Shown in pieces: positions 6,211 to 41,644 of a stretch of DNA of 64,000 nucleotides. The position numbers were made by a program, and so were the translations under genes. The first letter of the stretch is position 1. Each line of letters starts with the position of its first letter. This stretch comes from a virus. The stretch covers positions 1-64,000 of IMG/VR virus record IMGVR_UViG_3300050821_007696; one strand, given 5' to 3'. A model generated the notes under the pieces. The model saw only the letters and a program-made list of their open reading frames with translations, was not told where the DNA came from and did not search any database.

Positions 6211-6632
6211 GTCTCGTCCAGCCGGGCGAGGAACGCGGTGTTCTCCGCGCGCATCCGCTCCAGGAACTCGTCGGGGTCGTCGGTCAGCGGCATGACGTGG
6301 TACTCACCGGAGACCTGGCTGTCCGGTACCGGCCCGTCCGGGACGGCAGCGAACTCGGCCGTGTCCGCGACGCCGGGGCCGGCGTACAGGTGCGTGTCGT
6401 CCAGGTACGCGAGCGACTCCGGTGTCCACTCGAAGGTGTCGCCGTTCCAGTCCGGTAGCTTGACGTCGGCCATGTCCTGCTCGAATGCGCGCCGGTTACG
6501 CCGTTCCTCCGCGGCGATCCGGCGGCCGTCGACGAAGTAGTAGGCGGTCGCCGCGATCACGGCGATGCTCAGCAGGATCAGCCCGAAGGCGACGTCGGCC
6601 CAGTTCATTTCGATACGAGGCATGCTCAGCAC
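6207..6632 (-). CDS. Single-pass membrane protein of the lysis operon
   Basis: The frame encodes 141 residues from GTG 6632 (ATG 6623 is an alternative start). One hydrophobic segment (about residues 12-33) is followed by a basic stretch (GRRIAAEERRNRR) and an acidic soluble domain of about 100 residues. It lies between the Rpf-like lysin and the NlpC/P60 peptidase and overlaps both. It could be a spanin- or holin-like accessory, but no family is recognised. Confidence 0.55.
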   Translation of the reverse strand: MLSMPRIEMNWADVAFGLILLSIAVIAATAYYFVDGRRIAAEERRNRRAFEQDMADVKLPDWNGDTFEWTPESLAYLDDTHLYAGPGVADTAEFAAVPDGPVPDSQVSGEYHVMPLTDDPDEFLERMRAENTAFLARLDET

Positions 6633-7554: not shown

Positions 7555-7638
7555 GGAGGGTTGGCCGAGAGGCAAGGCGACGGGCTGCTATCCCGTAGTC
7601 ACGGTAAACGTGCGCAGGTTCGACCCCTGCACCCTCCG
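7555..7638 (+). tRNA. tRNA-Ser (anticodon GCT)
   Basis: The acceptor GGAGGGT pairs with ACCCTCC (7631-7637), and the discriminator is G. The anticodon stem ACGGG/CCCGT encloses CTGCTAT with anticodon GCT. A long variable arm typical of serine tRNAs precedes the T-arm GCAGG/TTCGACC/CCTGC. CCA is not encoded. It reads AGC and AGU codons. Confidence 0.9.
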
Positions 7639-7639
7639 C

Positions 7640-7723
7640 GGAAGGTACCGCACACGGGTGCAAACGGCTCTCGAAAAGCCGGGCGGGCAATGCGTCCCGA
7701 GGGTTCGATTCCTTTACCTTCCG
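7640..7723 (+). tRNA. tRNA-Ser (anticodon CGA)
   Basis: The acceptor GGAAGGT pairs with ACCTTCC (7716-7722). The anticodon stem CGGCT/AGCCG encloses CTCGAAA with anticodon CGA, which reads UCG. A long variable arm and a T-arm with two G-T pairs follow. It begins one base after the tRNA-Ser(GCT), so the two are probably cut from one transcript. Confidence 0.85.
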
Positions 7724-7726
7724 CTG

Positions 7727-8211: not shown

Positions 8212-9984
8212 GTGGGACTGATCGAGAGCGTCCGTGCCTCTGCCGCAGAGCAGCGGGTCATCGGCGGCGTTCCGTGGCGTCCCTGGACTAACCCGTTCTG
8301 GCGGTTCGACGTCGGCGGCCCGGTCCACCCGTCGCGGCAGTTCTTCGGCGCCGAAGAGGCGATGGGCCTGCCCGCGCTGTACGCCGGCGTCAAGCTCCTG
8401 TCGGACAACGCGGCCTCGCTGCCGCTGCGCGTCTACCAGTCCCTGGACGGCGGGGGCGGGTACGGGGCCGGCAAGCACCGGCTGTACGGCGGTCCCACCA
8501 TCTTCGACAAGCCGTCGGTCATCGGCACGTTCTTCGACTGGATGTCGCAGGCGATGGTGTCGGTGCTGCTGCAGGGCAACTGCTGGGGCTTCATCACCGG
8601 CAAGGACGGCTACGGCTTCCCGACGGGCATCGAGTGGATTCCGCCCGAGGACGTCTACGTCATGGAAGCCAAGGACGTCAACAGTGCCAACCCGCTGCGG
8701 TCGCGCGTGTTCGTCTTCGGCCGTGAGGTCCAGTGGTACGGCCCCGACTCCGAGGTGTTCCACGTCCGTGGCATTACCCTGCCCGGCCGGGTCGAGGCGA
8801 TCAGCCCGATGCGCGCCTTCGCGCTGACGATCAGCGCCGGCAAGGAAGCCCAGCGGTACGGCACCAGCTGGTACGAGGGCGGCGGCTTCCCCCCGGGAAC
8901 TTTCCAGAACGCTGAGATGGAAGTTAACGCAGCCCAGGCGGCCGAGATCCGCGCCGAGCTGGTTAAGTCGCTGCGCCGCCGCGAGCCGCTGGTCTACGGC
9001 CGCGACTGGGACTACAAGCCGGTGACCGTACCGCCGAGCGAGGCCCAGTTCATCGAGGCGATGCAGCTGAACGCGACGCAGGTCGCCGCGATCCTCAACC
9101 TGCCCCCGAACAAGCTCGGCGGCCTCGCCGGGGACAACCTGCACTACAGCTCGCAGGAGCAGGACACCCTGGCGATCATCGAGGCGCTGCGCCCGTGGCT
9201 GGTCCGGTTCGAGCAGAGCTTCTTCGACCTGCTGCCCCGCAACCGGTTCACCCGCTTCTACACCGACGCGCTGCTCAAGACCGACCTCGAAGCCCGCATG
9301 AACATGTACCAGGTCATGCGGAACATCGGCATGCGTACCGCCGACGAGATCCGCGAGCTGGAAGACCTGCCCCCGCTAGGGTCCGGGATCGGGGCCGAGG
9401 AAATGCCGCTGACCACGATGAACGCGATGGGTACCAGGGCCGGCGCCATCCCCAAGAGCTTCCTCAAGTCCGTCGTGCTGGAAATCGACGTCGCCGCCGA
9501 CCGGCTGATCAAGCTGGAGAAGACACTGATCTCCCAGGGCAAGCTCCCGCAGGCGGTCGCACCGCAGCCGGGCCAGGGCGGTGCCGGGCAGTCCGGCGGA
9601 GGTGCAGGCGGCGGTGCAACGGGTCCTGGCGCCACTCCCGGCGGACTCGGCGGCGCCCCTGCCGCGCCTGCGGTCACCGGGCCGGTCCCTCCTGCGGGGA
9701 AGGTGCCGATCGGCAAGCCGAACGCGCCGCTCCCCCTGGCCCAGGACCCGGCGTCGTTCCTCGCCTCGCTGATCAGCGTCCAGCGGGACATGGGCGTCGA
9801 TTTCGAGCTGCGCGAGCTGGCCCGGCACATGTACGCGCGCATCGCCGAGCGGGCGCACCAGATTGAGGTTCACGAGGCGGCACTGGGCGAGGAGATTCCG
9901 TCGGAGCACCTGTACGCCCCGTGGGTGCCCGGTCGCGATGACCTCCGCGACGTCGTCCTTTCCGCGAACGGACACCGCAAGTGA
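8212..9984 (+). CDS. Portal protein
   Basis: The 590-residue product matches HK97-type portals in length and in features: an N-terminal segment leading to GLPALYAGVKLLSDNAASLPL, a beta-rich stem, and the block ILNLPPNKLGG. The portal forms the ring through which terminase pumps DNA and to which the neck attaches. The C-terminal third includes a Gly/Pro/Ala-rich linker (about 440-510) and a helical tail. GTG 8212 follows the leader hairpin directly. Its place between terminase and protease is canonical. Confidence 0.88.
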   Translation: MGLIESVRASAAEQRVIGGVPWRPWTNPFWRFDVGGPVHPSRQFFGAEEAMGLPALYAGVKLLSDNAASLPLRVYQSLDGGGGYGAGKHRLYGGPTIFDKPSVIGTFFDWMSQAMVSVLLQGNCWGFITGKDGYGFPTGIEWIPPEDVYVMEAKDVNSANPLRSRVFVFGREVQWYGPDSEVFHVRGITLPGRVEAISPMRAFALTISAGKEAQRYGTSWYEGGGFPPGTFQNAEMEVNAAQAAEIRAELVKSLRRREPLVYGRDWDYKPVTVPPSEAQFIEAMQLNATQVAAILNLPPNKLGGLAGDNLHYSSQEQDTLAIIEALRPWLVRFEQSFFDLLPRNRFTRFYTDALLKTDLEARMNMYQVMRNIGMRTADEIRELEDLPPLGSGIGAEEMPLTTMNAMGTRAGAIPKSFLKSVVLEIDVAADRLIKLEKTLISQGKLPQAVAPQPGQGGAGQSGGGAGGGATGPGATPGGLGGAPAAPAVTGPVPPAGKVPIGKPNAPLPLAQDPASFLASLISVQRDMGVDFELRELARHMYARIAERAHQIEVHEAALGEEIPSEHLYAPWVPGRDDLRDVVLSANGHRK

Positions 9985-9988
9985 CACG

Positions 9989-10017
9989 TTGCACGTCAGG
10001 TAGCAGGTACCTACCCT
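9989..10017 (+). promoter_or_regulatory. Sigma70-type promoter of the capsid protease gene
   Basis: TTGCAC (9989-9994) and TACCCT (10012-10017) are 17 bases apart, the best -35/-10 pair in the window. The region also holds the inverted GGTAG/CTACC pair. It begins just after the portal stop. Confidence 0.55.
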
Positions 10018-10066
10018 GTTTTATAAGCCAGGCACACCCTGCGCTGTCTGAGAAGGAGACCACCAG

Positions 10067-11464
10067 ATGGCTGTTCTGAGCAGCAGCGCGCGGGACAACC
10101 TTCCCGACAGCGCCTTTGCCTACATCGAGCCCGGCGGCAAGAAGGTCAACGGCAAGACCGTTCCCGGCAGCCTCCGGCACTATCCCGTCCACGACGCCGC
10201 CCACGTCCGGAACGCCCTTGCCCGCGCAGGCCAGGGCTCCCGCTTCGCGAAGGAAGCCATGCCAAAGATCCTCGCCGCGGCCAAGCGGCACGGCGTCGAG
10301 CACGACAGCGCCGGCACCGGGCGGTCCCTCGACTCGCTGCTCCCCGAAGTCCGGTTCCTCGCCGACATCCCGGAGATCCGCAGCATCGGCGACGGCCAGC
10401 CCCCGCACATCACCGGGTACGCCGCCGCGTTCGGCAAGCTGTCCCGGCGCCTGGGCGGTTTCGTCGAGCGGGTCATGCCGACCGCTTTCAACGAGTCCCG
10501 CGACGCCGGCTGGCCTGACGTGGTCTGCCGGTACAACCACGACCCCAACATGGTGCTGGGTACCACCGGTTCCGGCACCCTGTCGCTGGCGATCGACGAG
10601 CGCGGTCTGCACTACGACGTGCTCCCCCCGGAGTGCCGCTCCGATGTCGTTGAGTACGTGCAGCGCGGCGACGTCCGCTACAGCTCCTTCGCGTTCCGCT
10701 GCATGGTTCCCGGCGAGGACGACGAGTGGGGCGTCTCCGACTTCGGCTTCCCGATGCGGTCCCTGCACAAGGTGCAGACGGTCGACACCGCGCCTGTCCT
10801 CGACCCCGCCTACCGTGACACCAGCGCCGTCGCCCGCAATATGACCGGCGCCGTGGAGTCCCTGGCCATGTGGGTCGACGCCGAGCCGGCCGAGGTCCGC
10901 AGCATGCTGGAGGCCGGGCAGGCGATCCGGCTGTTCAAGCGCAGCGACCGGCCCGTGCCGAAGCCCGCCCCTGTTCCGGAGACCCGCGAGTCCGGCATGC
11001 TCGACGACCCGCAGGTTGCGCTCCGGCACTGGACTTACGTGGCGGAGGAAGAGGCCGCGGGTGAAGAGCGCGCGGAGCAGGAGGACGAGGAGCAGCGCGA
11101 GCACACCGCCGAGGAAATCCTTGAGCACGCCGAGGAAAGCCGGGCGATGCACAACGCCGACACCATGTGCCGCAAGTACGTGGACGGCGAGCCCTGCGTG
11201 ATGGGTTCCGGGCACGACGGCGACTGCACCGGCCGCTGCTACTCCCGGCCTAACGGCCTGCCCTGCGCGATGGCAGCCGGCCACCACGGCGCGCATACCC
11301 CGATGGAAGTCGACGACGGCGCCGGCCGCGGTCCCGGACGTCCCCGCAACCGCGACGCGGGCGAGACCGAGGCTGCCGCAGAGGCGGAGAAGCGGACCCT
11401 GACCGGCCCGGAAGCCCTGGCGGCTGTGTTCGCGATGCGCGAGCAGCTCACCGTGATTGACTAA
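10067..11464 (+). CDS. HK97-type prohead protease with extra domains
   Basis: The product has 465 residues, with ribosome site GAAGGAG. Residues 1-80 form a small helical domain (HDAAHVRNALARAGQG) often fused to phage proteases. The U35-type protease follows (about 95-280), with catalytic candidates His158 in YNHDPNM and Ser206/207 in RYSSFAF. An acidic helical tract (about 335-365) may serve as scaffold. Unusual Cys/His repeats lie at about 366-410 (CRKYVDGEPC then GHDGDC, and CYSRPNGLPC then GHHGAH). The protease processes the capsid precursor during head maturation. The gene lies directly before the capsid gene block. Confidence 0.85.
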   Translation: MAVLSSSARDNLPDSAFAYIEPGGKKVNGKTVPGSLRHYPVHDAAHVRNALARAGQGSRFAKEAMPKILAAAKRHGVEHDSAGTGRSLDSLLPEVRFLADIPEIRSIGDGQPPHITGYAAAFGKLSRRLGGFVERVMPTAFNESRDAGWPDVVCRYNHDPNMVLGTTGSGTLSLAIDERGLHYDVLPPECRSDVVEYVQRGDVRYSSFAFRCMVPGEDDEWGVSDFGFPMRSLHKVQTVDTAPVLDPAYRDTSAVARNMTGAVESLAMWVDAEPAEVRSMLEAGQAIRLFKRSDRPVPKPAPVPETRESGMLDDPQVALRHWTYVAEEEAAGEERAEQEDEEQREHTAEEILEHAEESRAMHNADTMCRKYVDGEPCVMGSGHDGDCTGRCYSRPNGLPCAMAAGHHGAHTPMEVDDGAGRGPGRPRNRDAGETEAAAEAEKRTLTGPEALAAVFAMREQLTVID

Positions 11465-11468
11465 GCCC

Positions 11469-11792
11469 GTGCAGCGCGGGGAGATCGAGCGCATGCTCCA
11501 GGCGATGGAGCAGCGGCTGACTACGAAACTGGAGAACATCATGGCAGCTCAGGACGACATCAACACGGCGGTAGCGGATCTCACTGCGCTGCTGACCGAC
11601 ATGCAGGCGGACATCACCACTATCGGCACCGGCGTGACCGCGATCCAGGCGGCCCTCGCGGCGCTCCCGGCGTCGGTCGACACCACGGCGCTGAATGCCG
11701 CGGTCGCGCAGATCGCGCAGGCGCAGGTGAACCTGGATGCGTCAGCGGCCTCGGTCGCGAACGTGGTTCCCCCGGCGCCGCCCGCGGGTTAA
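11469..11792 (+). CDS. Small coiled-coil head protein
   Basis: From GTG 11469 it encodes 107 residues. The alternative ATG at 11541 has a GGAG site and gives 83 residues. The sequence is almost entirely Ala/Thr/Asp/Gln helix of coiled-coil type (INTAVADLTALLTDMQADI) with a Pro-rich tail. Small proteins of this kind are frequent next to actinophage capsid genes and may be scaffold or fibre components; the role is inferred. Confidence 0.6.
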   Translation: MQRGEIERMLQAMEQRLTTKLENIMAAQDDINTAVADLTALLTDMQADITTIGTGVTAIQAALAALPASVDTTALNAAVAQIAQAQVNLDASAASVANVVPPAPPAG

Positions 11793-11822
11793 GCTGAAGC
11801 CCTCGTCTGGTAGCGAGGTCTA

Positions 11823-11858
11823 ATAGGCGTCCTGCGGATTCGTCCCCAGGGCGCCTAT
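11823..11858 (+). promoter_or_regulatory. 12-bp hairpin in the capsid gene leader
   Basis: ATAGGCGTCCTG (11823-11834) pairs with CAGGGCGCCTAT (11847-11858) with one wobble. A TAAGCT box (11790-11795) lies upstream and a GGGG-TTTT-CCCC hairpin follows. The arrangement (TAAGCT, hairpin, gene) recurs at 13330. It could be a terminator-like attenuator or an mRNA-stabilising leader for the highly expressed capsid gene. Confidence 0.5.
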
Positions 11859-11959
11859 GCGTTTACCGGGGTTTTCCCCTAGTCTTGAATTTGAGTTATA
11901 GCCACGGCCGCGCGTTCTGCGCTGGAGCTGGTCCCGTCCTGGAACAGGAAGGACCGGCA

Positions 11960-13327
11960 GTGGCATCGGACCTTGCCAACAGCCTTCACGAGCAGGAGCT
12001 GGGGGTCTGGGCGAAGATCCAGTCCCTGGCGATGACTGCCTCGACTGAGAAGCGCAATTTCACCGAAGACGAGCAGCGCTCTTTCAACGCGATGCACGAG
12101 GAGCTGGACGGCGTCGACCAGCGCCTGAAGCAGATCCTCGAAGACGAGAAGCGCACCGCGGCGACCGACGAGATGTACGCCGGCCTTGAGCAGCGCGCTT
12201 CCAACCCGGGCATGAACCGGAAGCTGAACGACTTCGAGGTCGAGATGCGGGCCTTCGCCCGCGGCGAGAAGCGCACCCTCGACATCGTCAGCTCCGAGTC
12301 CCGGATCATGCAGCGGCTCGGCACCGGCCGTCCCATCAGCCCGGCTGAAGTCCGCGTGCTGACCGACGCCTACGTTGCGCCCGGCTCGTTCACCAACCAG
12401 ACCAACGCCGGCATTGTCCCGATTGACTTCTACGACCAGCTGCTCGCCTACCTCATTGAGGTCTCGGGCGTCATGCAGACCGGCCCGACCGTTCTGAACA
12501 CCGCCGGCGGCGAGCCGATCCAGGTTCCCATCGTGCAGCAGCACACCGGCCTGACCTCTGCGGGCGTCCAGGTAGGCGTCTCGGCCGCGCAGTCCGCGAC
12601 CCTGGCGACCGCCGACCCGGTCTTCGCGCAGAAGACCCTGACCGCCAACAAGTTCGGCATCCTGATCCAGGTAGCCCGTGAACTGATCGACGACAGCGGC
12701 GTCAACCTGCTCGGCTACCTCGCCATGTCGGCGGGCCGCGCGATCGGCAACGCGCTCGGCTCCTCGCTGATCAACGGCGGCAACGGCATCTCCGGCAACA
12801 TCATGTCAGCGCCCGTCGCGGTCACCGGCACCAGCTCCACGGCCGCGGGCGCCTCCGCCACCGGCCAGGTTCCCGGCGGCCCGTCGTACTCCAACCTGAT
12901 CGACATGGAGTACTCGGTTATCGCCCCCTACCGTCAGTCGCGCAGCTGCTACTGGCTCGGCGCGGACCGCACCCTCGCGGCCCTGCGGAAGCTGACCGAC
13001 TCCGTCGGCCGCCCCCTGTGGGAGCCCTCGACGGTCCTCGGCTCGCCCGACCTGCTGCTCGGCAAGCCGCTGGTCGCCGATCCGTTCATGAACGCCCTCA
13101 ATACCACGTCCAGCCCGTCGATCGTCTTCGGCGACTTCAGCCAGTACTTCGTCCGGATGGTCGGCGGAGTCCGGTTCGAGCGGTCGGACGACTTCGCCTT
13201 CGGGTCGGACCTGGTGTCCTTCAGGGCCATCATCCGGGCTGACGGCCAGCTGATGAACCCGCCCACCTCGGTTACCCCGCTGCTGAAGGGCCAGCCGCTG
13301 GTCCTGTTCCAGGGCGGCACCAGCTGA
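11960..13327 (+). CDS. Major capsid protein (HK97 fold)
   Basis: The start is GTG 11960 with ribosome site AGGAAGGA, giving 455 residues. The frame is open 25 codons further up, without a site. The N-terminal helical delta-domain (about 1-110; many Glu/Gln/Lys heptads) precedes the shell domain, which starts near SPAEVRVLTDAYVAPGSF. It continues with the typical ANKFGILIQVARELIDDSGVNLLGY block and ends near FRAIIRADGQLMNP. This order is characteristic of HK97-type capsids. It follows the protease and has its own hairpin-containing leader. Confidence 0.9.
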   Translation: MASDLANSLHEQELGVWAKIQSLAMTASTEKRNFTEDEQRSFNAMHEELDGVDQRLKQILEDEKRTAATDEMYAGLEQRASNPGMNRKLNDFEVEMRAFARGEKRTLDIVSSESRIMQRLGTGRPISPAEVRVLTDAYVAPGSFTNQTNAGIVPIDFYDQLLAYLIEVSGVMQTGPTVLNTAGGEPIQVPIVQQHTGLTSAGVQVGVSAAQSATLATADPVFAQKTLTANKFGILIQVARELIDDSGVNLLGYLAMSAGRAIGNALGSSLINGGNGISGNIMSAPVAVTGTSSTAAGASATGQVPGGPSYSNLIDMEYSVIAPYRQSRSCYWLGADRTLAALRKLTDSVGRPLWEPSTVLGSPDLLLGKPLVADPFMNALNTTSSPSIVFGDFSQYFVRMVGGVRFERSDDFAFGSDLVSFRAIIRADGQLMNPPTSVTPLLKGQPLVLFQGGTS

Positions 13328-15209: not shown

Positions 15210-15596
15210 GTGAACAAGACCGCCCGGACGGCCGCCGTGTTCCTTACGGTGGCCGTCGCCGTTTCCGTGCTAGTCGCCTACTGGCCCAAGGTCATGCACT
15301 TCCTCGGGTGGGACGGGCAGACCAGCGACTATTACGCAGCCTGGTCGTCCAGTGTCCCGGCGCTGTTCACCCTGGTGGGCCTGTCGACGCTGATCACCGG
15401 CATGTGGGCGCATGTCAACTGCCATGAGGCGGGCTGCTGGCGGATCGGCAAGCACAAGGTCAGCGGCACGCCCTGGTGCGGTGTCCACCACGACCACGCC
15501 CGGCCCGAGCGGACGGAACGCGAGCTACTAGAGTCGATCGAGGCGAGTCTCGGGCAGCTGGTCGTGCTGCTGAAGACGCGCTCGGGCGACCTGTGA
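15210..15596 (+). CDS. Two-TM membrane protein with Cys/His loop
   Basis: From GTG 15210 the product has 128 residues. Two hydrophobic segments (about 9-25 and 48-66) are followed by a Cys/His cluster (NCHEAGCWRIGKHKVSGTPWCGVHHDH) that could bind metal, and a C-terminal amphipathic helix. It overlaps the potassium-channel gene by four bases, so the two membrane proteins are probably made together and may work together. Confidence 0.6.
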   Translation: MNKTARTAAVFLTVAVAVSVLVAYWPKVMHFLGWDGQTSDYYAAWSSSVPALFTLVGLSTLITGMWAHVNCHEAGCWRIGKHKVSGTPWCGVHHDHARPERTERELLESIEASLGQLVVLLKTRSGDL

Positions 15597-15961
15597 CCTG
15601 GCGGCGGGTTCATGACTTCCTGTGGCAGACGGCCTTGAACCTGCATCACCAGAAGGCTGTGCGGCTGCTCGGTATCGTTGTCGTCCTCGACGTAGCGGGC
15701 GGTGCGGTTTTCGGTGCGGTCGACCACTGCGGGCTGTGGAACGGCCTGTACTTCGGCGTCGTCACCGTGACCACCGTCGGGTACGGGGACGTCACCCCGC
15801 ACGGCTGGGCTGCCCATATAGTCGCCCTGGCCATCATGGTCCTGATCATTCCCACTTGGACGGCAGTGTTCTCGTTTTTCACCACCGGGCTGATGGCCGA
15901 GCACGTCGACGCCAAGACCGACAGGCAGACAGCCGAGCTGAAGGAGCAGATGCCGCTATGA
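15593..15961 (+). CDS. Two-TM potassium channel
   Basis: The start is GTG 15593, overlapping the previous stop, and the product has 122 residues. The first TM helix is at about 24-42. The pore helix and selectivity filter follow (about 51-68), containing TVTTVGYGD, the K+ channel signature at 58-66. TM2 is at about 74-100 and the tail is a short charged helix. This is the minimal Ion_trans_2 (KcsA/Kcv-like) architecture; four copies would form a K+ pore in the host membrane. Minimal K+ channels are known from algal viruses. Here one sits in a membrane-gene pair before the sugar operon. A role in depolarising the host at infection or lysis is inference. Confidence 0.85.
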   Translation: MTWRRVHDFLWQTALNLHHQKAVRLLGIVVVLDVAGGAVFGAVDHCGLWNGLYFGVVTVTTVGYGDVTPHGWAAHIVALAIMVLIIPTWTAVFSFFTTGLMAEHVDAKTDRQTAELKEQMPL

Positions 15962-16245
15962 CGCTGTCAGTTACCCGTGACCGCGCCCGGAAGACTGTCG
16001 TCATCCGCGCTGTTGCCGGGCCGGCCGTCTTCGAGATCGAGGAGCAGCCGGGTCACGCGCTCGCTTTCTGGCACGAGCTGAGCAAGGTAGTCGCCGCTCC
16101 GGATACTGAGGCGCGGGCTGAGGCCGGTTACAGCAGGTATGTGGCGCACTGCGGCGGGGTCTCCGTGCACGGCGAGCCGCTGCCCGCCTGGGGGCTGATG
16201 AACGAGGCCGTCCGCCAGCACTGGATTGCCGCCTTCACGGAGTAG
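15958..16245 (+). CDS. Hypothetical protein
   Basis: The 95-residue product starts at ATG 15958 inside the channel gene's stop. It has a beta-rich N-terminal half (LSVTRDRARKTVVIRAV) and a helical C-terminus. No family is recognised. Overlap places it in the same unit as the channel. Confidence 0.55.
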   Translation: MTLSVTRDRARKTVVIRAVAGPAVFEIEEQPGHALAFWHELSKVVAAPDTEARAEAGYSRYVAHCGGVSVHGEPLPAWGLMNEAVRQHWIAAFTE

Positions 16246-16611: not shown

Positions 16612-16758
16612 ATGGCAGATCAGTACTACGCACAGGTTTACCTCCGCGGCTGCGGCGAGATGATCGGTGTCAGGACCGAAGTTGACCTCGAAACCGATCC
16701 GGTGCTCGGCAAGATGACAATCTGGTTCATCAAGCCGGAAGACGAAGAGGCTGAGTGA
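16612..16758 (+). CDS. Small acidic hypothetical protein
   Basis: The product has 48 residues (MADQYYAQVYLRGCGEMIGV and onward), beta-rich with an acidic tail. It starts behind a leaderless-type promoter and overlaps the glycosyltransferase gene by GTGA. It may be a leader gene of the sugar operon; function is unknown. Confidence 0.5.
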   Translation: MADQYYAQVYLRGCGEMIGVRTEVDLETDPVLGKMTIWFIKPEDEEAE

Positions 16759-17825
16759 AGATCCTTGCATCGCACGACGGCGGCTCCGGTTGCGCCTGGT
16801 ACAGGATTTATGTTCCGCTGACCGCGGTGAACGCCCTGACCCCGGATGTCAGCGTCGCGTTTCGGTCCGGCGGCGCCAAGCTCATGCGGGACGCGCCGCC
16901 CGCGGTGAAGCTGACCGACGCGGACGACGTTGACGTGGTGGTCTCCCAGCGGGCCAGCGCGTACGAGGGCCTCGGCCTGTGGCGCCGGTGGGGCAGTACC
17001 CCGTGGCGGCGCACCGTGTACGAGAACGACGACGACGTCTTCTCCATCACCCGGGAGAACTCAGCCGCCTACGCTTCCTACAAGGAGGGGACTGACGTCC
17101 GCGAGGCGACGCTGCGCTACATCGCTACCGCCAACCTGGTGACCACCACCAGCCCGCACCTCGGTGACCGCTTCCGCGAGATGCTCGGCAACCGGGTCAC
17201 CGTGGAGGTGCTGCCCAACTACGTCCCCGGCTGGGTGCTAGATTTGCCCCGCGACCCGTTCGACCGGCGGCTCCGCATCGGCTGGGCCGGCGGTGCCTCC
17301 CATGCGCGCGACATTCACATGGCGGTACCGTCGGTCCGCCGACTCTTGAAACGGTTCCCGCAGTGGGACCTGTACCTCAACGGCGTCGACTACCGGGACA
17401 AGTTCAAGTGCCCGCCCGAGCGGTCATTCCACATCCCGTGGATACACGTCACCGACGACCCCGAGGTCTACTACCGCGCTATCGACTTCGACATCGGCAT
17501 CTGCCCGCTGCTGTCCACCCAGTTCAGCCGCTCCAAGAGCCATGTCAAGGCACTTGAGTACTTCAGCCGCGGCATCCCCGTCGTCGCGTCCGACGTCGAG
17601 CCGTACCGCCGGTTCATCGACCACGGCGTCAACGGGTTCCTCGCGAAGACGGACCACGAGTGGCTGCGGTACCTGTCCGAGCTGGCGGGCAGCACCGACC
17701 TGCGGCTGAAGATGGGGGCAGCTGCCAAGGAGAAAGCACGTGAGAACACTATCGAGGGCCACTATGGTGAGTGGGTTAACGCGTACCGTATGTTGTTCCC
17801 GGTGGGATGGGAGTACAAAGGCTGA
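16755..17825 (+). CDS. GT4-type glycosyltransferase
   Basis: The product has 356 residues from GTG 16755. The C-terminal half has the GT-B/GT4 pattern: a phosphate-binding GWAGGASHARD block (about 175-185), then SKSHVKALEYFSRGIPVVASDVEPYRRFIDHGVNGFL (about 255-292), where the Glu of ALEYFS contacts the sugar nucleotide. The N-terminus is a Rossmann-like domain starting MKILASHDGGSG. Such enzymes transfer a sugar from a nucleotide donor to a glycan or protein. It heads a run of co-oriented, overlapping sugar genes. Confidence 0.8.
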   Translation: MKILASHDGGSGCAWYRIYVPLTAVNALTPDVSVAFRSGGAKLMRDAPPAVKLTDADDVDVVVSQRASAYEGLGLWRRWGSTPWRRTVYENDDDVFSITRENSAAYASYKEGTDVREATLRYIATANLVTTTSPHLGDRFREMLGNRVTVEVLPNYVPGWVLDLPRDPFDRRLRIGWAGGASHARDIHMAVPSVRRLLKRFPQWDLYLNGVDYRDKFKCPPERSFHIPWIHVTDDPEVYYRAIDFDIGICPLLSTQFSRSKSHVKALEYFSRGIPVVASDVEPYRRFIDHGVNGFLAKTDHEWLRYLSELAGSTDLRLKMGAAAKEKARENTIEGHYGEWVNAYRMLFPVGWEYKG

Positions 17826-18235
17826 TGGCGTCCTGGACTCAGGTTACCCCCGGGTCGGCGTACGTGCAGAACGCGCTGCCGTCATGCCGTAACCAGGGGT
17901 GCCAGGCTCCCGAGCTAGCGGCGCTTGCACGGCACATATCCGATGAAGCGCACAAGACCCTAGAGATGCTGAGCAGGAAAGAGGGGCAGATGGAGCCGAC
18001 GAAGGCGCTGTGGTGCGAGCAGGGCGGGCACTCCTTCAGCGAGAAGGACCCTGACCTCCAGGTGCTCACGATCCAGGGGAAGGACAAGGAGGGCAAGCCG
18101 ATGTCTGAGTCGCGCACTATCTGTGGCCCCTGCGCGGCAAAGACCAAGGTGAACCTCGGCAGCGCCCGGAATGCCCCGGTTACCGAGCTTCCCCCTGGGG
18201 AGGATGTAAAGTCTCGCTTATGCGATACCTGGTGA
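17825..18235 (+). CDS. Cys-containing hypothetical protein
   Basis: From ATG 17825, overlapping the stop of the glycosyltransferase gene, it encodes 136 residues. Cys/His ligands are spread through it (SCRNQGCQAP, CEQGGHSF, CGPCAAK), suggesting one zinc site. A helix (about 30-55) lies between. The gene's tail overlaps the promoter and start of the epimerase gene by 16 bases. Function is unknown. Confidence 0.5.
   Translation: MASWTQVTPGSAYVQNALPSCRNQGCQAPELAALARHISDEAHKTLEMLSRKEGQMEPTKALWCEQGGHSFSEKDPDLQVLTIQGKDKEGKPMSESRTICGPCAAKTKVNLGSARNAPVTELPPGEDVKSRLCDTW
18207..18212 (+). promoter_or_regulatory. -10 box TAAAGT, leaderless-type promoter
   Basis: TAAAGT lies inside the end of the previous gene, seven bases before the ATG at 18220. 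It gives the epimerase and downstream genes their own possible leaderless transcript. Confidence 0.45.
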
Positions 18236-19191
18236 CCGGCGGCGCCGGCTTCCTCGGCAGTAACCTCGTTCGCCGCCTCGTTGCCAGCGGCCATGAGGTC
18301 TGCGTTCTCGACGACCTGTCCCGCGGCAGGCGGTCACGCCTCGACGGGGTGAACTGCGAGCTTGTCTACGGTGACGTCCGCAGCCCCGAAGCGGTCGCCG
18401 TCGCGATGCAGGGCTGCAACGCCGTCGTGCACATGGCCTACCTCCAGGGCACCCAGACGTTCTACGCCGAGCCCCGCCAGGTCCTCGACGTCGCCGTGCG
18501 CGGCATGCTGACCGTGCTCGACGCGTGCCAGGCAACCGGCTGCGCGGACATGCTGCTGGTCTCCTCGTCTGAGGCGTACCAGGTCGCGTCCGTCGTGCCC
18601 ACCCCGGAGACCATCCCGCTGACCGTCCCCGACGTGCTCAACCCCCGCTACTCCTACGGCGGCGGCAAGATCGCCTGCGAGCTGATGGCCCTGGCCTGGC
18701 AGCGGACTGGCGTCCTCGACCGCCTCGTCATCGCCCGGCCGCACAACATCTACGGCCCCGATATGGGCTGGGAGCACGTCATCCCCGAGTTCTGCGAGCG
18801 GATGACCAAGCTCGACCGCGAGCACCCCGAGGGGCTTATCCCGTTCCCCATCCAGGGCACCGGGCTGGAAACCCGGTCGTTCTGCTTCATCGACGACTGC
18901 ATCGACCAGCTTGAGGTCCTTACCCGGCCGGGTACCGAGGGCGGTGTCTATCACGTCGGCACCATGGACGAGTGGCGCATCGAGGACGTCGCCGGGCTGA
19001 CCGCCTGGAACTACGGCCGGGAGATCAAGCTCATGCCCGGCAAGCTCCCCCAGGGGTCGCCGCCCCGCCGCCTGCCCGACACGGCGAAGATTAACCGGGA
19101 ACTGTTCCGCACCCGGCCGCATGTTGAGCAGGTGCCGTTCCGCGAGGGCCTCGCCAAGACGGTTGAGTGGTACCGCGCCAATGAGCGGTGA
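18220..19191 (+). CDS. NAD-dependent sugar epimerase/dehydratase (extended SDR)
   Basis: The 323-residue product has the Rossmann motif TGGAGFLG (6-13), the acidic ribose-binding DDLS (31-34), SSSEAY (115-120) and catalytic YGGGK (Tyr146, Lys150). HNIYGP follows, as in GalE/RmlB-like enzymes. These act on nucleotide-bound sugars. Whether this one epimerises, dehydrates or reduces cannot be told. The next genes are a sugar C-methyltransferase and a sugar cupin, which together suggest tailoring of a keto-deoxysugar nucleotide drawn from the host. It overlaps the next gene by 11 bases. Confidence 0.82.
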   Translation: MRYLVTGGAGFLGSNLVRRLVASGHEVCVLDDLSRGRRSRLDGVNCELVYGDVRSPEAVAVAMQGCNAVVHMAYLQGTQTFYAEPRQVLDVAVRGMLTVLDACQATGCADMLLVSSSEAYQVASVVPTPETIPLTVPDVLNPRYSYGGGKIACELMALAWQRTGVLDRLVIARPHNIYGPDMGWEHVIPEFCERMTKLDREHPEGLIPFPIQGTGLETRSFCFIDDCIDQLEVLTRPGTEGGVYHVGTMDEWRIEDVAGLTAWNYGREIKLMPGKLPQGSPPRRLPDTAKINRELFRTRPHVEQVPFREGLAKTVEWYRANER

Positions 19192-20335
19192 CGTCAAGGA
19201 GTGCGGCGGCTGCGGTTCTGTCTTCCTGGCCTTGCTGTTCGACATGGGCACACAGCCGCTCGCCGAAGGCGGTTCCGCTTCCAGTTACCCGCTCAAGCTA
19301 CTCCGCTGTGATAACTGCGGCCTCGTCCAGCTGTCCTATGTCGTTGACCCGGAGACCGTGTTCCGGCCCGCGCACCCGTACACGACCGGGAACTCGCGGG
19401 TGCTGCGGGAGCACTACAGGTGCCTTGCCCGTCATCTTCAGTACAACCTGCTGGTCGAGGACCTGGTTGTCGATATCGGTGCTAACGACGGCACCCTGCT
19501 CAATTTCTTCGGGCCGGCGCTCCGGCGCGTTGCGGTCGAACCGACGGACCAGGGCAGGAAGATTCCCGAGGGCATCAGCTGGGAGAAGGGTTTCTTCACC
19601 CCGGGCCTTGCCCGCGGCATGCGCGATGGATACGGCCAGGCCAAGGTCATCACCGCCTGCAACGTCCTCGCGCACGCGCCTGATATCCATGGCTTCCTCG
19701 ACGGCGTGCACACTCTGCTCGACGATGACGGGGTGTTCGTCACCGAGAACCATGATCTCGCCAGCATCACCGAGGGCCTTCAGATCGACACGGTTTACCA
19801 CGAGCACCTGCGCTACTACACCCCCGGTACGCTGTGCCGCCTGCTGGAACAGCACGGCCTGCGGGTCACCGGCACCGAGCAGACCCCGGTGCACGGCGGG
19901 TCGTTCCGGGTGACCGCGCGCAGGGCACGGGACGGCTTCCCCGGCCGGGCCAGGGCCGCGGCGACCGCGCTGCGCGCCATGCTGTGGCAGCTGAAAGACA
20001 AGCACCAGGCCGTCTACGGTATCGGCGCCACTACCCGGGCGACCCCGCTGATCCACTACGCCGGCATCAAGGACTTCATCGACTGCGTCTGCGAACGGGC
20101 AGGCAGCGACAAGATCGGCACGCACATCCCCGGCACCGCGATCGAAGTGGTCGACGAGGAACGGCTCATTGCCGACCAGCCCCCCTACGCGCTCGTCCTG
20201 TCCTGGCACATCGCCGGCGACATCCTGCCGAAGCTCCGCGAGCGCGGGTACAAGGGCCAGTTCATCGTCCCGCTGCCCGAGCCGAGGGTAGTCAGCGCCG
20301 CCGACGCGTTCAGGGAAAGGCCCTACCGTGACTGA
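19181..20335 (+). CDS. Nucleotide-sugar C-methyltransferase (NovU/TylC3-like)
   Basis: The start is ATG 19181 and the product has 384 residues. The N-terminal zinc module has Cys8, Cys11, Cys43 and Cys46. The SAM-binding motif VVDIGANDG is at 96-104. A block with ENHDLASI and TVYHEHLRYYTP (about 185-210) and a C-terminal nucleotide-fold domain (YGIGATTRATPLIHYAG) complete the three-domain plan of TDP-hexose C-methyltransferases. These enzymes add a branched methyl to a keto-sugar. Gene order with the SDR and the cupin fits one pathway. Confidence in class is high, in substrate low. Confidence 0.8.
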   Translation: MSGDVKECGGCGSVFLALLFDMGTQPLAEGGSASSYPLKLLRCDNCGLVQLSYVVDPETVFRPAHPYTTGNSRVLREHYRCLARHLQYNLLVEDLVVDIGANDGTLLNFFGPALRRVAVEPTDQGRKIPEGISWEKGFFTPGLARGMRDGYGQAKVITACNVLAHAPDIHGFLDGVHTLLDDDGVFVTENHDLASITEGLQIDTVYHEHLRYYTPGTLCRLLEQHGLRVTGTEQTPVHGGSFRVTARRARDGFPGRARAAATALRAMLWQLKDKHQAVYGIGATTRATPLIHYAGIKDFIDCVCERAGSDKIGTHIPGTAIEVVDEERLIADQPPYALVLSWHIAGDILPKLRERGYKGQFIVPLPEPRVVSAADAFRERPYRD

Positions 20336-20693
20336 CCGCTTCGAGGACGACCGCGGCGTCATCCAGGACCTGCTGAACGACAGCGTCGACAGCATCACCT
20401 ACATCTTCACCCGGCGCGGTGCCGTCCGCGGCAACCACACGCACAACGAGACCACCCAGTGGACCTACGTCATCCAGGGCAGGCTGCTGATGGCGTCCCG
20501 CGTCCCGGGCGGCGTGGTGCTCACCCGGGAACACGGACCCGGCGAGCTGGTCACCGACAGACCCGGCGTCGCGCACGCCTGGGAGGCGCTGGAGGACACC
20601 GAGGTCCTGGTGTTCACCCAAGGGCCGCGGTCGGGAGCGAATTACGAGGACGACGTGCAGCGGCTGCCGCCCGGGGAAAGGCTGATCGGATGA
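20328..20693 (+). CDS. Sugar-nucleotide cupin (WxcM/FdtA-like)
   Basis: The product has 121 residues from GTG 20328. It is a single cupin with RGNHTHNETTQWTYVIQGRLL as metal/active-site block and DRPGVAHAWEA as the second His motif. Proteins of this size and pattern isomerise or epimerise dTDP-keto-deoxyhexoses. It overlaps both neighbours by a few bases, in line with a shared pathway with the SDR and C-methyltransferase. Confidence 0.65.
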   Translation: MTDRFEDDRGVIQDLLNDSVDSITYIFTRRGAVRGNHTHNETTQWTYVIQGRLLMASRVPGGVVLTREHGPGELVTDRPGVAHAWEALEDTEVLVFTQGPRSGANYEDDVQRLPPGERLIG

Positions 20694-21325
20694 TGTCCAC
20701 TTGGCAGGTCCTGATCACCTCGATCCCGCACCGGCACGAGAAGCTGCTGCGGCTCCTTGCCGAGTTCGACCGGCAGCTGCCCCGGACCGGGGTCGGCGTG
20801 CTGCTGTACCGTGACGACCTCGAACTCTGCTACGGCGGCAAGACCCAGGCGCTGATTGAAGCGTCAACCGCTGATTACGTCTGCTGCGCCGACGATGACG
20901 ACATGATCGCCCCGGACTACGTCGAGAAGATCGCTACCGCCCTGGAAGACTTGCCGCAGTACGTCGGCTTCCGGGTCAGGTGGACGCAGAACACCGTTCC
21001 GCAGAAGCCCGTCATCCACTCCCTCGCCTGCGGCGGCTGGCAGGACACCTCCGGCCGTCTGGAACGGGACATTGCCCAGTTCAACCCGATCCGCCGTGAC
21101 ATCGCCCTGCTCGGCACCTGGGAAGGCGGCTGGGAAGCCGAGCGCCGCTGGGGGAACCAGGTCCGGGCTACCGGGGTGCTGCGGTACGAGACCTTCATCG
21201 ACGAGGAGCTGTACTACTACCAGGAATCCACCGGCGACTCCTTCAAGAGCGACCGCCGTCCCCTCGGGCACATGCCGGAACTGCCGGACTACCCGTGGCT
21301 CAGGCAGATAGGACCCTACGCGTGA
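20690..21325 (+). CDS. GT2-type glycosyltransferase
   Basis: ATG codons at 20690 and 20693 are both possible starts; the first overlaps the previous stop. The roughly 210-residue product has the DDDD metal-binding motif in YVCCADDDDMIAPDYV (about residues 60-75) and an N-terminal LITSIPHRHEKLLRLL strand-helix typical of GT-A enzymes. It is shorter than full GT2 enzymes and lacks membrane segments, so it is likely a cytoplasmic transferase. Confidence 0.7.
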   Translation: MMSTWQVLITSIPHRHEKLLRLLAEFDRQLPRTGVGVLLYRDDLELCYGGKTQALIEASTADYVCCADDDDMIAPDYVEKIATALEDLPQYVGFRVRWTQNTVPQKPVIHSLACGGWQDTSGRLERDIAQFNPIRRDIALLGTWEGGWEAERRWGNQVRATGVLRYETFIDEELYYYQESTGDSFKSDRRPLGHMPELPDYPWLRQIGPYA

Positions 21326-21945
21326 TCATCCCCGGCGAACCGGGCCTAGCTGCTGCCTACACCGATGAGCAGCCTGTCCGCGATGCCTACTGGCATCCGG
21401 CACCCGGAGACACCGTCATCGACATCGGCGCGGCGGTCGGCAGCTACACGGTCCCTGCGCTGCTAGCCGGCGCTCGCGTGATCGCCGTCGACCCGGACCG
21501 GGGCGCTACGGCCAAGCTAGAGCGCGTGGCTGCTGCGAATGGCCTGACAGACTTCACGGTCCTCAATGCTGCTGTGTTCGACAGCCCGGGTTACCCGGCG
21601 GACATGCGCGCGGCTCTAGAGGCGTCAGAGTACCCGTACCTGATCCCGCGGCCGGATGTCCTGTGGGCCACACTAGACGAGATCGCTGAGGGCCTGGACA
21701 AGGTAGACCTGATCAAGATCGACGTAGAGGGTGCTGAACTAGGGGTCTTGCGCAGCGGCCCGCGGGTCCTGAACGCATTGCGCCCCCGGCTGTTGATCGA
21801 AGACCATACCGAGGTCTACCCGTACGTAGCCCAGATAGACAGCCGTCGCCTGTGCACCGAGCTGCTCGTGGAAGCGGGCTACACCGTGACGGAAGTGCCC
21901 TGGGGACCGCCCCCGCGCACCTACCTGGTGTGTAGGCCGAACTGA
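21322..21945 (+). CDS. FkbM-family methyltransferase
   Basis: The start is GTG 21322, overlapping the previous stop, and the product has 207 residues. The SAM-binding motif TVIDIGAAVGSYT (about 34-46) and the FkbM hallmark VDLIKIDVEGAELGVL (about 127-142) are present, with the IEDH block after them. FkbM enzymes O-methylate sugars and related hydroxyls. Codon use has more A- and T-ending codons (CTA, GTA) than its neighbours, which may mean recent acquisition. It fits sugar tailoring in this operon. Confidence 0.82.
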   Translation: MIIPGEPGLAAAYTDEQPVRDAYWHPAPGDTVIDIGAAVGSYTVPALLAGARVIAVDPDRGATAKLERVAAANGLTDFTVLNAAVFDSPGYPADMRAALEASEYPYLIPRPDVLWATLDEIAEGLDKVDLIKIDVEGAELGVLRSGPRVLNALRPRLLIEDHTEVYPYVAQIDSRRLCTELLVEAGYTVTEVPWGPPPRTYLVCRPN

Positions 21946-21954
21946 AGGAGAAGA

Positions 21955-22704
21955 GTGAGAGACCTGATGCTTGCCGTGCCCAGCCGCGGCCGTCCGCAGA
22001 ACATCGCCCGGCTGATGTCCACGATGAAGGCGACGTGCGAGATGAAGACAGACCTAGCCGTCGGGCTAGACGAGGACGATCCGGCGCTGCCGGATTACCG
22101 CAGCGTAATGGAAACGAGCCAGCGCCCTGACATCGTCTCCTGGGAAATCCGGAACGACCTGCGTAAAGTCACCGCCTGGACGAACCACCTGGTTAGCTGG
22201 AAAACCTACGACTACCGGGCTTTCGGGCAGGTCGGCGACGACAACGTGTTCAGTACCCCCGGCTGGGATACGCAGATCATGGACGCGCTGGAGAAGACGC
22301 CGTTCGCGTTCGGCAACGACCAGTACCCCTCGCGGGCGCCCGGCACTCTGTCCTGCCACGTCTTCATGCGCGCCGAGGTCGTCAAGGCGCTCGGGTACTT
22401 CGGGCCGCCGTCGATCGCGCACATGTACGTGGACGTCGCCTGGTACGCCTGGGGCACCGCCTGCGGCATCACCTACCTGCACGACGTGCTGATCCCGCAC
22501 CTGCACTACACCTCCGGCGGCGCCCCGCACGACGCCACCTACCAGAGTTCCTATTCCGGCACCGGCGAGGACCTGCGCGCCTGGCACGCCTACTGCCGCG
22601 ACGGCAGCCTCAACGCCGATATCCGCAAGCTCGGCGGCACCGAGTTCAGCCCGCTCGCGCTCGCGCAGTTCAACAGCGACCTGTTCGTCCCGGAGGTCTG
22701 GTGA
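21955..22704 (+). CDS. Phage-type glycosyltransferase (GT-A fold)
   Basis: The 249-residue product starts at GTG 21955 with ribosome site GAAGGAGAAG. The N-terminus AVPSRGRPQNIARLM and the central GQVGDDNVFSTPGWD, whose GDDN acts as metal motif, match the small GT-A proteins often found in actinophages. C-terminal His residues (PHLHYTSGGAPHD) may complete the site. The acceptor is unknown. Confidence 0.7.
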   Translation: MRDLMLAVPSRGRPQNIARLMSTMKATCEMKTDLAVGLDEDDPALPDYRSVMETSQRPDIVSWEIRNDLRKVTAWTNHLVSWKTYDYRAFGQVGDDNVFSTPGWDTQIMDALEKTPFAFGNDQYPSRAPGTLSCHVFMRAEVVKALGYFGPPSIAHMYVDVAWYAWGTACGITYLHDVLIPHLHYTSGGAPHDATYQSSYSGTGEDLRAWHAYCRDGSLNADIRKLGGTEFSPLALAQFNSDLFVPEVW

Positions 22705-22979
22705 GCGGTCACGACCTGGTCCGCGAGATTATCGCCAAGCACGGCGCGGACCGTTATCCCACGGTAGAGCTTGCTGCGATGAAGGTCGCGGAAGAGCTAG
22801 GGGAACTGATGGCGGAGCTGCTGCGCGGGCTGTACGTGCCGATGCCCAGCGACGGGACGCGCAAGGAGTACGCCGACGTCGGGCTTGCCCTGTACGGGCT
22901 GGGTAACATCCTCGGCCTTGACCTGGAGGCTGAGATGCGCCGGGTCGTAGCGAACGAGACACGGAGGTTCGACCGGTGA
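22701..22979 (+). CDS. MazG-like nucleotide pyrophosphohydrolase
   Basis: The product has 92 residues from GTG 22701. KVAEELGELMAELL (EExxE type, about 28-41) and KEYADVGLALYGL (ExxD type, about 55-67) are the two metal-binding helices of the all-alpha NTP pyrophosphatase fold. Phage MazG-like proteins hydrolyse nucleotides or alarmones; here one may also turn over nucleotide sugars. It overlaps both neighbours by four bases. Confidence 0.7.
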   Translation: MSGHDLVREIIAKHGADRYPTVELAAMKVAEELGELMAELLRGLYVPMPSDGTRKEYADVGLALYGLGNILGLDLEAEMRRVVANETRRFDR

Positions 22980-23611
22980 GCAAGCCCCTGGTTTCGGTGA
23001 TCACCCCGACCTGGGGCCAGCGGCACGAGAAGCTGGTCAACCGGTGCATCCCGTCGGTTCAGGCACAGGCGTACCCGAAGGTCGAGCACGTCATCGTGTC
23101 TGACGGCCCGGACTACAAGCTGTCGAGCCTGATGCTTGAGCTGATGTCCGGAAGCGCCTTCACTCACCGGACCGAGTTCTCCTCGCTGAAGGAGCACGAC
23201 CCGGAGCCTCACTGGGGGCATCACGCCCGGCTGCGGGGCATCGAGATGTCCGCGGGCGAGTACATCGCCTACTGCGACGACGACGACGCGCTGCGCCCCG
23301 ACCACGTGCGGCTGCTCGCCGGGGTGCTGAGCGACGACCCGTCCGTCGGCTGGGCGTACTCGGTGATGGCCAGCCACAGCCGGTCCGGGGAGTGGTTCCA
23401 CGTGGGGGCCGGGGCCGGCGCTCCCATGGGCGGGCAGATCGGCACCCCGATGATCATGCACCGGCGCAGCGTCCTGGAGCACGGCACCTGGGGGCCGGCG
23501 TCGGCGACGGAAGACTGGGAGCTGGTGCAGCGGTGGCTCGCCGCGGGCGTCACTTACGGGCGCGTGCACGAGGTGACAGTTGACGTCTGGCCTTCTTCGT
23601 ACTGGAGTTAA
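22976..23611 (+). CDS. GT2-type glycosyltransferase
   Basis: The 211-residue product opens with PLVSVITPTWGQRHEKLVNRC. The DDDD motif lies in YIAYCDDDDALRPDHV (about 95-110), and TEDWELVQRWLAAG (about 180-193) is the acceptor-side ED motif. This is a complete small GT2 enzyme without membrane segments. It is the last transferase of the operon and overlaps the MazG-like gene. Confidence 0.8.
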   Translation: MSKPLVSVITPTWGQRHEKLVNRCIPSVQAQAYPKVEHVIVSDGPDYKLSSLMLELMSGSAFTHRTEFSSLKEHDPEPHWGHHARLRGIEMSAGEYIAYCDDDDALRPDHVRLLAGVLSDDPSVGWAYSVMASHSRSGEWFHVGAGAGAPMGGQIGTPMIMHRRSVLEHGTWGPASATEDWELVQRWLAAGVTYGRVHEVTVDVWPSSYWS

Positions 23612-41493: not shown

Positions 41494-41565
41494 GCGCCCG
41501 TAGCTCAGCGGATAGAGCACCTGCCTACGGAGCAGATGGCGAGGGTTCGAGTCCCTCCGGGCGCA
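41494..41565 (+). tRNA. tRNA-Arg (anticodon ACG)
   Basis: The acceptor GCGCCCG pairs with CGGGCGC (41558-41564), discriminator A. The D-stem is GCTC/GAGC, and the anticodon loop CTACGGA carries ACG. The T-arm is GAGGG/TTCGAGT/CCCTC. The first pair of the anticodon stem is C-A. CCA is not encoded. It reads CGU and, with A34 edited to inosine, CGC, frequent codons in this genome. Confidence 0.88.
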
Positions 41566-41566
41566 C

Positions 41567-41639
41567 GTGCCTGTAGCTCAGGCGGGAGAGCGGTCCCCTG
41601 AAAAGGGACAGGGCGGCGGTCCGATTCCGTCCGGGCACA
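41567..41639 (+). tRNA. tRNA-Phe (anticodon GAA)
   Basis: The acceptor GTGCCTG pairs with CGGGCAC (41632-41638), discriminator A. The anticodon stem GTCCC/GGGAC encloses CTGAAAA with GAA. The T-loop reads TCCGATT, a departure from the usual TTCGANT, so it may be slightly degenerate. It begins one base after the tRNA-Arg. Confidence 0.8.
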
Positions 41640-41644
41640 CGGCC

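Follow-up and report, generated by a model that had tools for sequence, protein, structure and literature searches.

A potassium-channel-type pore gene paired with a CCCH membrane protein gene in the late gene clusters of uncultivated tailed phages, with and without a potassium selectivity filter

What use could a tailed phage make of a small K+-channel pore encoded among its structural genes, and does the membrane protein gene that overlaps the pore gene belong to the same device? This question was raised by positions 15210–15961 of the window, which is here the whole stretch of 64,000 nucleotides that was analysed (positions 1–64,000 of the 84,235-b IMG/VR virus record IMGVR_UViG_3300050821_007696).

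The pore gene (15593–15961, plus strand) starts with GTG at 15593, stops with TGA at 15959–15961 and encodes 122 aa; in the alignment, the relatives begin at the position of an alternative TTG start near 15635. The product matched Pfam PF07885 (Ion_trans_2) with 41 bits (E 1.8e-10; curated cut-off 22.5 bits), and residues 23–120 of 122 matched phrog_14690, annotated as 'cAMP-dependent Kef-type K+ transporter' (E 7.2e-13). A phmmer search of the PDB retrieved NaK, MthK, K2P and KCNQ pores. An AlphaFold2 monomer, for which 20 aligned relatives were used as input, reached a pLDDT of 91.6 and showed an N-terminal amphipathic helix, TM1, a pore helix, the filter and a long TM2 helix, and in Foldseek this model matched KcsA, NaK and KCNQ with a probability of 1.00 (E values of about 1e-3 to 2e-3). 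Hydropathy placed TM1 at residues 25–43 (15665–15721; helix 17–44 in the model) and TM2 at residues 76–94 (15818–15874; helix 72–119 in the model). The pore helix was located in the model at residues 48–60 (15734–15772), and the selectivity filter TVTTVGYGD corresponds to residues 58–66 (15764–15790). The charge distribution indicated that the N-terminus is inside, and alignment showed a near-invariant proline in TM2 (Pro87) near the usual glycine-hinge position. The original prediction of a 122-residue product with TM1, pore helix, full filter and TM2 was borne out by the Pfam, PHROG, PDB, AlphaFold2 and Foldseek results. The match of this ORF to K+-channel pores is far beyond chance, and we are confident that the window protein is a K+-selective pore. 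It shares the fold, the TxTTVGYGD filter and the aromatic pair ending the pore helix with KcsA, MthK and NaK, but it has no long cytosolic domain and is accompanied by an upstream CCCH partner; unlike KcsA, it has V57 at the place of E71 and a proline instead of a glycine near the hinge.

The partner gene (15210–15596, plus strand) encodes a protein of 128 aa with two hydrophobic helices, as shown by hydropathy, a CCCH finger (C71-x4-C76-x13-C90-x2-H93; 15420–15488) and a C-terminal helix. All four CCCH residues were invariant in an alignment of 24 sequences, with slightly variable spacing in more distant members. The protein belonged to no Pfam, PHROG or NCBIfam family, had no sequence match in the PDB and no significant fold match in the PDB or BFVD; its finger part gave only non-significant treble-clef or HNH-like fold matches. 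It is treated here as a new family of putative Zn-finger membrane proteins. Over 26 partners, the net charge averaged +1.6 for the N-terminus and −0.3 for the loop, which places the N-terminus inside, and according to the positive-inside rule the finger should therefore face the cytoplasm. The two genes share a 4-nt stop/start overlap (GTGA, 15593–15596), from which translational coupling is expected.

The terminase, portal, prohead protease and HK97-type major head protein genes were found upstream of the pair in the same orientation (portal to major head protein, 8212–13327), in agreement with the phage origin that had been claimed for this DNA. The portal was closest to those of Mycobacterium phages (29% identity) and the GC content is 68%; the host is likely actinobacterial. 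GC3 of the pore gene was 0.84 compared to 0.90 for the capsid and portal genes, with a similar codon-position composition, and the range given for the pair (0.84–0.89) was comparable to portal and capsid. The next gene (15958–16245, plus strand, 95 aa) overlaps the channel stop by ATGA and has a homologue after the channel in locus L022; it is probably a mere neighbour of the pair. Small soluble proteins of this type (91–104 aa, FWxxLGRLI-type core) were encoded 3′ of the pair in several phages (window 15958–16245; L022:8329–8604; L117:9264–9578). Further downstream, between the head and tail genes, a sugar-modification cassette (16755–23611) contained genes for glycosyltransferases, an epimerase, a C-methyltransferase and an FkbM methyltransferase; L022 and L025 had a glycosyltransferase at this place. 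Two pairs of adjacent tRNA genes were located amid the structural genes of the window, tRNA-Ser (GCT) and tRNA-Ser (CGA) at 7555–7724 and tRNA-Arg and tRNA-Phe at 41494–41640.

Relatives were searched for in IMG/VR, with the TVTTVGYGD pattern and a profile and thereafter with the partner. The filter and profile scans detected eight contigs encoding short channels with 31–62% identity to the window protein, and in all eight contigs with a short TVTTVGYGD 2TM protein of the window family the partner was present directly upstream. These contigs were selected by TVTTVGYGD and the presence of the filter in them carries no weight, hence the search by partner. In this reverse search, a pore homologue lay downstream of the partner in 20 of the 24 contigs that could be resolved; no pore followed the partner, or a shorter partner relative, in L128, L129, L134 and L146, and L150 was left out of the count because the contig ends too soon. 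Three pattern matches in sequences with a GC content of 0.38–0.40 (L135, L138 and L141) were located inside a long unrelated ORF and were rejected as chance matches. Both genes were thus found in 22 loci of uncultivated phages, including the window and with L026 and L027 counted as one locus. The channel homologue was positioned directly after the partner in 21 of these and closely after it in L143, and the overlap was exactly 4 nt (ATGA, GTGA or TTGA) in 19, the exceptions being L026, L120 and L143. The pairing by overlap with a two-TM Cys/His protein, which had been proposed for the window, is therefore real and recurs in 21 further phage loci. In L143 (minus strand), the partner and the filter-less pore were separated by an inserted gene for a small membrane protein with an (AREVAAEV)n repeat (6265–6540 in reverse-complement coordinates).

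An ordinary host K+ channel gene that was acquired by the phage and is drifting as cargo next to a chance neighbour would be another explanation, since channel genes are common in bacteria and have been gained several times by phages (Greiner et al., 2018; PMC6163359). However, identity to the closest cellular channel relatives did not exceed about 32% across the whole protein or 46% in partial alignments, the partner motif was present in none of 80 distant cellular channel loci fetched, and the pair recurs with overlap in 22 loci with dN/dS below 1. The conserved pairing largely refutes the chance neighbour, and we regard this explanation as very improbable. A survey of 396 Actinomycetota genomes yielded four shorter or distant partner-like proteins and one poor match, and no pore was seen adjoining any of them. 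Actinomycetota genomes encoded shorter membrane proteins that carry a related C/H motif (YxFxSGFGSD...CHxxxCxR...C.KHHP; L174:1399–1746, L175:1507–1785 and L176:1498–1824); they are possibly encoded by prophages, and the scanned proteins with this motif matched no PHROG family.

Our preferred reading, with a probability of roughly 50%, is that the pair constitutes a two-component membrane cation-channel module that tailed phages, probably those infecting actinobacteria, carry as cargo among their late genes. Within this module, we lean towards the partner being a functional subunit. Across the 22 loci, the pair occupied several positions within the late genes: between capsid-associated genes and a sugar-modification cassette (window, L022, L024 and L025), just 5′ of the terminase genes (L023, L009 and L127; similarly L004, L117, L133, L148 and L149), at the head-tail connector (L026, L121 and L124–L126), and between a holin-like and an endolysin-like gene (L132). 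This distribution is best read as that of movable cargo, and gene order alone suggests that the pair is expressed late. In eight loci, the pair was adjoined by a gene for a minimal VIT1-type (PF01988) membrane protein of about 150 aa (L024:4288–4770, L025:8380–8832, L121:5342–5977, L124:5798–6253, L125:7537–7995, L126:5944–6402, L127:34–657 and, on the minus strand just upstream of the partner, L132); no VIT1 gene was detected in the window record. In those VIT1-type proteins in which both ends match, the PF01988 profile aligned only at positions 1–57 and about 133–213, so that the cytosolic metal-binding part appears to be missing.

The arrangement in L132 (4318–6652, minus strand; holin-like, VIT1-like, partner, pore-like and endolysin-like gene) suggests another function, namely that of a holin- or pinholin-like accessory that collapses the membrane potential and times lysis, with the filter-less pores acting as non-selective leaks. 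The endolysin-like gene of L132 contains PG_binding_1 (E 2.4e-13), whereas its holin-like gene (Holin_2-like, PF23778) scored 27 bits, below the cut-off; a partner-like gene in L128 was also located near a PG_binding_1 gene, and the late gene position would suit such a role. On the other hand, L132 is the one clear case among 22 loci, the pair being located by terminase, capsid or connector genes elsewhere, and several records contained a separate holin-like gene roughly 5–8 kb away. No lysis gene was found near the window pair, and neither the partner nor the pore matched a holin family in Pfam, PHROGs or NCBIfam. A lysis function of the pair is therefore considered unlikely.

The K+ filter was canonical in 9 of the 22 pore homologues (window, L022, L023, L024, L025, L004, L009, L026 and L140), of which L140 was retrieved via the partner and not via the filter, and it was replaced in the other 13 (L117, L120, L121, L124, L125, L126, L127, L132, L133, L143, L147, L148 and L149). 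Nine of these 13 proteins contained YC..G..(T/S)T-x-G-C instead of YF..V..TTVGYGD, i.e., F54 was replaced by Cys, V57 by Gly and Y64-G65 by a single Cys. Gly57 was present in 11 of the 13 filter-less proteins, while neither Cys54 nor Gly57 was found in any of the nine canonical ones. Cys54 co-occurred with the filter Cys (Fisher p 0.018 for 12 sequences, relatedness ignored), and L148, which was found after the pattern had been noticed, showed all three changes. When the signatures were aligned to KcsA, F54, V57 and Y64 corresponded to W68, E71 and Y78; W68 and Y78 of KcsA are part of the aromatic cuff. As judged from sequence, the cysteines at the F54 and Y64 positions might be joined by a disulphide bond. 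Otherwise the pore protein was conserved in the filter-less members, which also retained the TM2 proline. A tree with the filter columns suggested a single origin of the degenerate filter, but trees without these columns indicated at least two changes of filter state, with moderate branch support, and a single clade of filter-less members was disfavoured (AU p 0.033 and 0.023). In L121, L124, L125 and L126, the filter-less pore had a C-terminal extension of ~90 residues (HVIMQ.HIERVVAGHCAD...), and the partner had a long C-terminal extension as well.

Pairwise comparisons of the channel genes from filter-less loci gave dN 0.016 and dS 0.198 for L121/L126 and dN 0.053 and dS 0.509 for L125/L126 (listed as L145/L126); for the partner, L024/L025 gave dN 0.127 and dS 0.796. 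The filter-less pores that are close enough to be compared are thus under purifying selection. No second PF07885 channel was detected in the records of the filter-less phages. In a mirror-tree test, the partner and pore distance matrices were weakly correlated (Spearman 0.19; 154 of 2000 permutations as high), which suggests that partners and pores have been exchanged between lineages and argues against a tightly co-evolved interface. With 13 of 22 pore homologues lacking the K+ filter, K+ selectivity is not required across the family, and explanations that rest on K+ selectivity alone are weakened.

An alternative is a module that works independently of conduction. The channel fold would then serve in the membrane as a scaffold for holding or displaying the CCCH partner, or as a dominant-negative subunit, or would join host channels, and K+ conduction would be a leftover in members such as that of the window. 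The loss of the filter in at least two changes (AU p 0.023 against a single clade), the retention of the remaining pore protein with its TM2 proline, purifying selection on the measurable filter-less members and the lack of a second PF07885 channel in their records all fit this explanation. Against it stand the nine members in which the filter has stayed intact despite 47–62% identity elsewhere (31% in L026), among them L140, which is canonical although it was found via the partner, so that the filter is actively kept there. We consider a conduction-independent role somewhat unlikely. Returning to the cation-channel module, we tentatively propose a more specific form of it, in which a pore with the K+-channel fold and a 2TM CCCH subunit make up a hetero-complex that is specific to phages. 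Its K+ filter may have been shortened repeatedly, with the aromatic F54/Y64 contact exchanged for a Cys pair, likely a disulphide, and a Gly placed at the E71 position. If this is true, the same device would exist in K+-selective and in non-selective or non-conducting versions among related phages.

K+ channels in phages as such are not new. A survey described a 2TM channel of 119 aa in Mycobacterium phages Myrna and Phabba and K+ channels in at least nine Vibrio phages and Lactobacillus phage PLE, discussed K+ fluxes in T4 and T5 injection, and termed the function of phage K+ channels speculative (Greiner et al., 2018; PMC6163359). No established function for any phage K+ channel was found in the literature (2018 survey only). 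In INPHARED, 41 phage records matched the channel of Streptomyces phage Wakanda. The original statement that a phage version is rarely described is thus only partly right, since phage K+ channels were already known (PMC6163359); neither the conserved pair nor the filter-less relatives were found described in the literature searched. The phrog_14690 channels of isolate phages (Mycobacterium Myrna and Phabba; Streptomyces BillNye, Wakanda, Muntaha and Circinus; Aeromonas LAh phages) are likewise short 2TM pores with a G(Y/F)GD filter in tailed phages (about 119–126 aa in Myrna, Phabba and Wakanda). However, the window channel belonged to a different lineage in the tree, and it is located among structural genes, whereas channels of the phrog_14690 type are found among tRNA or nucleotide-metabolism genes. 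No CCCH motif was present beside the channel in the four isolate phages examined (Myrna, Wakanda, BillNye and PLE2), and no filter-less relatives have been reported for the isolate channels. Searches of isolate phages by tblastn with the window channel and several partner-type queries gave no match even at permissive E-values, and neither did a protein search with the window channel as sole query.

Chlorovirus Kcv is, like the window channel, a stand-alone viral pore module. Unlike Kcv, the window channel has longer N- and C-terminal helices and a partner gene, and it is encoded by a tailed phage and not by an algal NCLDV. A Kcv-style role at entry, which had been suggested for this gene, is contradicted by the setting: the neighbours are late structural genes, and tailed virions lack a membrane that could bring in a channel, so that delivery with the particle is unlikely and the protein can act only after expression. 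One such action would be superinfection exclusion, in which a K+ conductance alters membrane potential or turgor and blocks injection by a second phage. The precedent of Kcv in chloroviruses, the K+ fluxes in T4 and T5 injection and the placement of the pair, which resembles that of cargo and is common to glycosyltransferase and methyltransferase genes, are in line with exclusion. The pair does not, however, occupy an early or lysogenic position, the window record contains no tyrosine or large serine integrase, and nothing ties the pair specifically to exclusion, which makes this role improbable.

Under the preferred reading of a cation-channel module, the pore protein would form a tetramer in the host membrane and the partner would lie beside it as an assembly or gating subunit, which may respond to metal or redox state through its cytoplasmic finger. 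K+ conduction by the window pore would draw the membrane potential to the equilibrium potential of K+; a K+-selective conductance would be expected to clamp a bacterial membrane near this potential and not to abolish it. Once the cell is depolarised, K+ would leave and turgor would drop, and the host would thereby be prepared for the final phase of infection. A less selective leak through a shortened filter would suit such a device as well. Such a late conditioning of the host membrane via K+ conductance is a possible but doubtful role. What distinguishes the non-selective pores of CNG channels from K+ pores is a filter that has lost YG, and YG is also lost in the 13 degenerate relatives. By this functional analogy, those relatives whose filter is shortened (YG to C) may be non-K+-selective leaks or non-conducting; unlike CNG channels, they are 2TM proteins without a nucleotide-binding domain and frequently have a Cys in the filter.

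The two-gene cassette can be expressed as a whole, which makes the function of a phage K+ channel testable, and the naturally occurring pairs with and without the filter provide built-in controls. For channel biophysics, the family provides a naturally occurring series of rewritten K+ filters alongside a retained pore helix, TM2 and partner. For phage biology, the repertoire of late genes would gain a device for ion conductance.
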